This document shows, in pieces, positions 45,613-46,728 of a stretch of DNA of 46,728 nt (position 1 is the stretch's first letter; every line of letters starts with the position of its first letter). The stretch is from Allobosea sp. 12-68-7. GTDB taxonomy: Bacteria; Pseudomonadota; Alphaproteobacteria; Rhizobiales; Beijerinckiaceae. The notes below the pieces were generated by a model that made no database searches, was not told the DNA's origin, and saw only the letters and a program-made list of their open reading frames with translations. The position numbers were made by a program, and so were the translations under genes. The DNA lies in the NCBI GenBank assembly GCA_002279705.1, contig NCCO01000003.1, positions 1 to 46,728 on the forward strand, written 5' to 3'.

Positions 45613-46728
45613 ATGGCTGCCAAAGAAGTCCGCTTTTCCACCGATGCGCGCGACAAGATGGTCGCCAAGGAGATCGAGCTCGCCGACAAGTTCGAGAACA
45701 TGGGCGCCCAGATGGTTCGCGAAGTTGCGTCCCGTCAGAACGACCATGCCGGCGACGGCACCACGACCGCCACGGTCCTGGCCCAGGCCATCGTCCGTGA
45801 GGGCGCCAAGTCGGTCGCGGCCGGCATGAACCCGATGGACCTGAAGCGCGGCATCGATCTCGCCGTCGAGGCGATCGTCGCCGACCTCAAGAAGAACTCG
45901 AAGAAGGTCACCTCGAACGCCGAAGTCGCGCAGGTCGGCACGATCTCCGCCAATGGCGACGAGTCGGTCGGCAAGATGATCTCGACCGCCATGCAGAAGG
46001 TCGGCAACGAGGGTGTCATCACCGTCGAGGAGGCCAAGACCGCCGAGACCGAGCTCGACGTCGTCGAGGGCATGCAGTTCGACCGCGGCTACCTCTCGCC
46101 CTACTTCATCACCAATTCGGAGAAGATGGTCGCCGAGCTGGAAGACCCCTACATCCTGATCTTCGAGAAGAAGCTGTCCTCGCTCCAGGCGATGCTGCCG
46201 ATCCTCGAAGCCGTGGTGCAGACCGGCAAGCCGCTGCTCATCATCGCCGAGGACGTCGAGGGCGAGGCTCTCGCCACGCTCGTCGTCAACAAGCTCCGTG
46301 GCGGCCTGAAGGTCGCGGCCGTCAAGGCTCCGGGCTTCGGTGATCGCCGCAAGGCCATGCTCGAGGACATCTCGATCCTGACCGCCGGCCAGATGATCTC
46401 GGAAGACCTCGGCATCAAGCTTGAGACCGTGACCCTCCAGATGCTCGGCCGCGCCAAGAAGGTGCGCATCGAGAAGGAGAACACCACGATCATCGACGGC
46501 GCCGGCAAGAAGAAGGACATCGAGGCCCGCGTCACGCAGATCAAGGCGCAGATCGAGGAGACCACCTCGGACTACGACCGTGAGAAGCTGCAGGAGCGTC
46601 TGGCCAAGCTCGCCGGCGGCGTCGCGGTGATCCGCGTCGGCGGCGCGACCGAGGTCGAGGTCAAGGAGAAGAAGGACCGCGTCGACGACGCCCTGAACGC
46701 CACCCGCGCGGCCGTGGAAGAGGGCATC
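45613..46728 (+). CDS. groL: Chaperonin GroEL with a ~39-residue in-frame N-terminal deletion (3' end outside window)
   Basis: 372 residues are visible; the frame runs off the window. AAGGAG precedes the ATG at 45613 by 8 bp. The protein starts [16 protein letters not shown] and passes directly to [15 protein letters not shown]. In normal GroELs about 39 residues lie between these blocks (E. coli 17-55). They include the TLGPKGRNV nucleotide loop, the SFGAP segment and KDG with the catalytic-site Asp52. The junction is at 45660/45661. The remainder, from GDGTTT (D48, equal to E. coli D87) to the AVEEG at the window end, is continuous and highly conserved, with apical and intermediate domains intact and no other indel. 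Without the loop, ATP binding should fail. This may be a real lesion, a specialised paralogue or a sequence error. Confidence 0.95.

Follow-up and report, generated by a model that had tools for sequence, protein, structure and literature searches.

A 117-bp in-frame gap in a groEL gene of Allobosea sp. 12-68-7 that is very probably an assembly artifact

The groEL gene at the right end of the contig analyzed here lacks 117 bp in the assembled sequence, and we consider it very likely that this gap is an assembly artifact. The gap is present in the record but almost certainly not in the cell, where the gene is most likely an ordinary one. The original prediction had reported a loss of about 39 residues, or about 117 bp, and had named an assembly error as one possible cause, next to a deliberate edit of the record and to a gene that is specialized or dying while another groEL does the work. 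The assembly error is strongly supported by the positions of contig ends, by exact runs shared between groEL paralogs, by the intact gene of a close relative, and by joints found in other genomes. The window, i.e., the whole stretch of DNA under analysis (46,728 bp), is an entire contig (hereafter C8) of a 312-contig, 4.57-Mb assembly, estimated to be 92.26% complete with 2.45% contamination.

The gap in groEL and the intact orthologous gene

The right end of C8 carries, in this order, a CIRCE-like element, groES, and the start of groEL (Table 1), and groES lies directly upstream of groEL. The contig runs out inside groEL, with the remainder of the gene on another contig (C236); this truncation by the contig end had not been part of the original prediction. 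The stretch missing from the gene is exactly 39 codons long (LRGV...TKDGVT), corresponding to residues 17–55 when the first methionine is counted as 1. The translation jumps from DARDKM to VAKEIEL, and the frame stays open to the end of the window. When aligned to the group I chaperonin family GroEL/Cpn60 (PF00118, TIGR02348), residues 16–372 of the C8 protein align unbroken, and its score against TIGR02348 (608.6 bits, with a cut-off of 582.1) passes the curated GroEL threshold. It differs from the family in that, as assembled, it is without residues 17–55 and has its 3' part on a separate contig. When the protein is compared with solved GroEL structures, the alignment resumes at chain residue 54–55 in most bacterial chains. 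As had been claimed, the assembled gene lacks the GPKGR phosphate loop and the region around Asp52 in the N-terminal equatorial part, and the nucleotide-binding motif GDGTTT is kept downstream of the gap (residues 47–52 of the C8 query). We take residues 17–55 of GroEL to be part of the equatorial ATP pocket. A loss that keeps the frame leaves no stop codon as a warning to the annotator.

Table 1. Features at the right end of the window
Feature	Position	Strand	Description
CIRCE-like operator	45186..45212	+	TTAGCACTC-N9-GACTGCTAA, 1 mismatch; mean of 0.00 in 100 shuffles
groES, complete, 95 aa	45277..45564	+	Positions include the stop codon (coding 45277–45561); above the NCBIfam GroES cut-offs
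groEL, 5' part only	45613..46728	+	Truncated by the contig end; assembled form without 117 bp
Junction, 117 bp missing (codons 17–55)	45660..45661	+	Interpreted as an assembly joint
28 bp right of the junction	45661..45688	+	Identical to the second groEL on C77; inside a paralog-shared block
Final 91 bp of C8	46638..46728	+	The same 91 bp open C236 and recur inside the C77 groEL

We compared C8 with a genome of the same genus that consists of two contigs and in which the Pfam model detects one groEL (G009). In this comparison, made on the plus strand with 60 kb of G009 and with pieces shorter than 300 bp discarded, C8 is collinear with its relative in five pieces of 93.6–98.7% identity, from base 72 to the end of the window. 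Gaps of at least 15 bp within the five pieces comprise three losses in the window, of 15, 15, and 18 bp; between the pieces, the window exceeds G009 in length at three places. At the groEL junction, conservation resumes on both sides as originally described: all 48 bp to its left, counted from the ATG, and all 60 bp compared to its right are identical in the two genomes, and between these G009 has an intact block of exactly 117 bp. To the right of the junction, the C8 gene differs from that of G009 by 13 synonymous and one nonsynonymous codon in 356, and the groEL tail on C236 (99.2% identity to G009 over the groEL portion) by four synonymous codons and no nonsynonymous ones in 165. Going by the codon differences of C8, the gene shows no decay, although a very recent deletion would not be expected to show any either. 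Taken together, C8 and C236 carry the ortholog of the one groEL that G009 was found to have, and thus probably the main copy. The C8 locus most likely holds a full-length real gene encoding an ordinary GroEL that resembles the one of G009, and we infer that the 117-bp block is present in the cell itself.

A second groEL and the boundaries between contigs

A Pfam search of the assembly returned four groEL pieces: the one on C8, one at the beginning of C236, and a pair on a further contig, C77. The C77 gene has the 117-bp block, and instead is without gene bases 1063–1142 (80 bp), which throws it out of frame after QIKAQIE. A degenerate pattern for sequences coding for GPKGRNV occurs a single time in the assembly, on C77. 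Since this only occurrence lies in a gene that is itself broken, the assembly, taken literally, is without an intact groEL. The proposed search for further groEL copies therefore did turn up a second one, but not one that is intact as assembled, and the notion that another groEL does the work while the C8 gene is specialized or dying finds no backing in this broken copy, the only other groEL found.

The positions of these breaks are informative. The first base past the C77 junction corresponds to base 1 of C236, and from there C77 and C236 are identical for 99 bp. A junction on the starting base of another contig fits a contig-graph boundary, whereas a biological deletion has no reason to land there. 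The lengths of the overlaps (91 bp between C8 and C236, 99 bp between C77 and C236, and 91 bp in another genome of the genus, G012) fit graph boundaries as well, while fixing no single assembler word length. Downstream of groEL, C236 further carries a run of 71 N (L152 1199–1269); in G009, the sequences flanking this run overlap by 24 bp, and to judge from this overlap, it is a false scaffold gap. The errors on C77 and C236 also bear on the suggestion that the record was deliberately edited, which had been raised by the cut on exact codons. They are joint errors of the same assembly that either break the frame or carry N filling, so that no edit is needed as an explanation, and we regard one as exceedingly improbable.

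Some features of the C8 junction do speak against an artifact. It is free of N, in frame, and on a codon boundary, a position with a chance of about 1 in 9 for a random joint. Moreover, C8 and C77 have 28 bp in common on its right but only 3 bp on its left, and with so short a stretch on the left the dropped block is not visible as a perfect repeat over both edges of the junction. Using the G009 block as a stand-in for the one missing from C8, we found 113 of its 117 bp to be identical in the C77 block; the comparison of G009 with C77 also includes an exact run of 82 bp (bases 112 to 193) that spans the position of the C8 junction. No C8 version of the lost block was found on a stray contig of the assembly, in which a 151-bp DNA search around the C77 block and the GPKGRNV pattern matched C77 only.

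We propose an artifact of the following kind. The reads of the sample would have held two groEL genes (one on C8 and C236, the other on C77) sharing long exact runs, which a short-read assembler would collapse into one graph node. When the genes were rebuilt, the N-terminal block would have been omitted from the C8 copy and the second shared block from the C77 copy, and the C8 copy would have been split over two contigs. We infer that the assembler dropped the block at a step of this sort; the exact step could not be reconstructed. As in known artifacts of repeat collapse and scaffold joining, ends and joints fall here in blocks shared between paralogs, with 91-bp exact overlaps and a false N gap. 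What sets this case apart is that the joint at 45660/45661 has no N and, by chance, preserves the frame.

We also considered C77 as part of a contaminating genome and rejected this origin: 3.1 kb beside its groEL matches G009 at 93% (part of it at 95%), which places C77 in the same species group. The C77 groESL itself was not found in G009, though the adjoining 3.1 kb matches; it may be either a genuine second copy or part of a chimeric contig. This second groESL operon lies at L151 6432–8350, and C77 carries genes that by eye look chemoreceptor-like close to both of its ends.

The block and its joints in related genomes

We surveyed 60 relatives, drawn from a larger group, and looked at part of their matches. 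Members of the genus commonly give two or more groEL matches. For 20 relatives that have a pair of copies, we compared the paralogs without gaps; 19 of these were alignable, the exception being G012, owing to its doubled block (see below). An exact run of at least 35 bp overlaps the block missing from C8 in 17 of the 19 (all but G018 and G023, which count against an artifact in this respect), and one overlaps bases 1063–1240, which take in the C77 loss and the C8 end, in 16 (all but G018, G060, and G047). The identity of the paralogs over the block missing from C8 is 87–94%. Both missing blocks are sites where groEL paralogs of the same genus often share long exact runs. Short-read assemblers work with words in this range of lengths, and shared groEL runs can thus collapse.

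The block itself is nearly universal among the loci counted. A GPKGR-type motif stands at the usual spacing of 55 residues before GDGTT in 131 of 133 relative loci, a count that is blind to frame closure elsewhere in the gene. For named genomes (L007–L086, the best 80 of at least 588 confirmed loci), the spacing is present in 79 of 80; the exception, L073, starts at a contig end past the block and is uninformative. The groEL listed first among the named genomes is that of Methylobacterium hispanicum, which would make Methylobacterium the likely genus of the window. It is likewise present in 28 of the best 29 copies from other members of the genus (L088–L116), with L114 as the exception, and in all 24 further same-genus copies that were fetched by place. 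The fragmented copies of G005, G021, G026, and G046 (L139–L146) and five places (L159–L163) stand outside this census and were treated separately. These counts bear on the possibility that the C8 gene encodes a functional short GroEL without the ATP loop, with a special role such as the passive holding of unfolded proteins. Although the open frame and the conservation on both sides of the gap would suit such a protein, the usual spacing prevails in relatives, where one exception cannot tell and the other has the block twice; the lost residues are those that we assign to the ATP pocket; and the copy is the ortholog of the relative's sole groEL. We hold it to be the least credible of all the readings considered.

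Joints within groEL are also found in other assemblies of the genus. G012, a single contig, has the same N-terminal block twice (L114 2550–2732), with an exact copy of 91 bp around one N and the frame thrown; it has the look of a scaffold joint between two contigs that overlap, in a genome that seems to be finished. In G011, both groEL copies have N joints near residues 399–419, in the 3' block: one carries a 3-N run between residues 406 and 419 and lacks residues there (L160 2405–2407); the second has just one N, and its residues 399–414 are covered twice (L161 1068). The gene is divided by contig ends in G005, G026, and G046; in the first of these, a contig end cuts it at base 1153, and two separate contigs both begin at gene base 1105. 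In G031, one groEL copy starts at residue 48, near a contig end. The only groEL found in G021 (430 contigs, 6% contamination) is without 258 bp in frame, jumping from gene base 301 to 559 with one base shared (L146, on its contig C94, at about locus base 2166), probably an artifact of the same kind.

Two partial copies do not resemble joints. On contig C1 of G016, a genome of two contigs, a groEL without its first 111 residues is fused in frame to unrelated sequence (L159, 2603400–2607000) and looks like a true remnant, and contig C20 of G006 has a diverged groEL fragment spread over two frames. Each of these genomes also has longer groEL matches elsewhere, and real loss of extra groEL copies thus occurs in the genus. 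In a survey of 2,307 proteobacterial genomes, groEL is reported from every genome, and broken copies are described, some beside intact ones, e.g., one broken copy beside five intact in Bradyrhizobium diazoefficiens NK6 (PMC6403173).

Truly partial copies in the genus count against an artifact at C8, and would fit a real and recent deletion in one of the two groEL genes, the C8 copy being a young pseudogene and the C77 copy, then really intact, doing the work. The existence of a second groESL on C77, the multiple matches common in the genus, and the partial or broken copies beside intact ones in G016, G006, and NK6 all agree with such a history. However, the gene on C8 and C236 is probably the main copy, as the ortholog of the only groEL of G009, and the C77 copy is also broken as assembled. 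Moreover, the codon differences between C8 and G009 are nearly all synonymous (13 against one), and in G009 the two ends of the block, compared over 12 bp to each side, show no repeat in register. We therefore consider a recent deletion very unlikely. Less probable again, to the point of being hardly tenable, is that the deletion is real and the gene expressed, yielding a GroEL without the ATP phosphate loop, perhaps as a passive or regulatory subunit in rings of the C77 GroEL; the break on C77 would then be an artifact. The preferred reading, an assembly artifact, calls for caution only: groEL in this genus is often multi-copy with shared runs, and assemblies lose, double, or split such blocks. 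Where a fragmented assembly shows an internal in-frame loss in an essential gene, the gap should be compared with paralogs and contig ends before biological claims are made.

Two further observations were made. In G033 and G044, both of the same genus (rated 93% and 98% complete), neither a protein search nor the Pfam model gave a groEL match, and the gene was probably lost in assembly. In the draft genome of Microvirga soli (L011 3192–3197), an in-frame TAG stands just past VAKEIELAD in groEL, close behind the block, and could be a sequence error.
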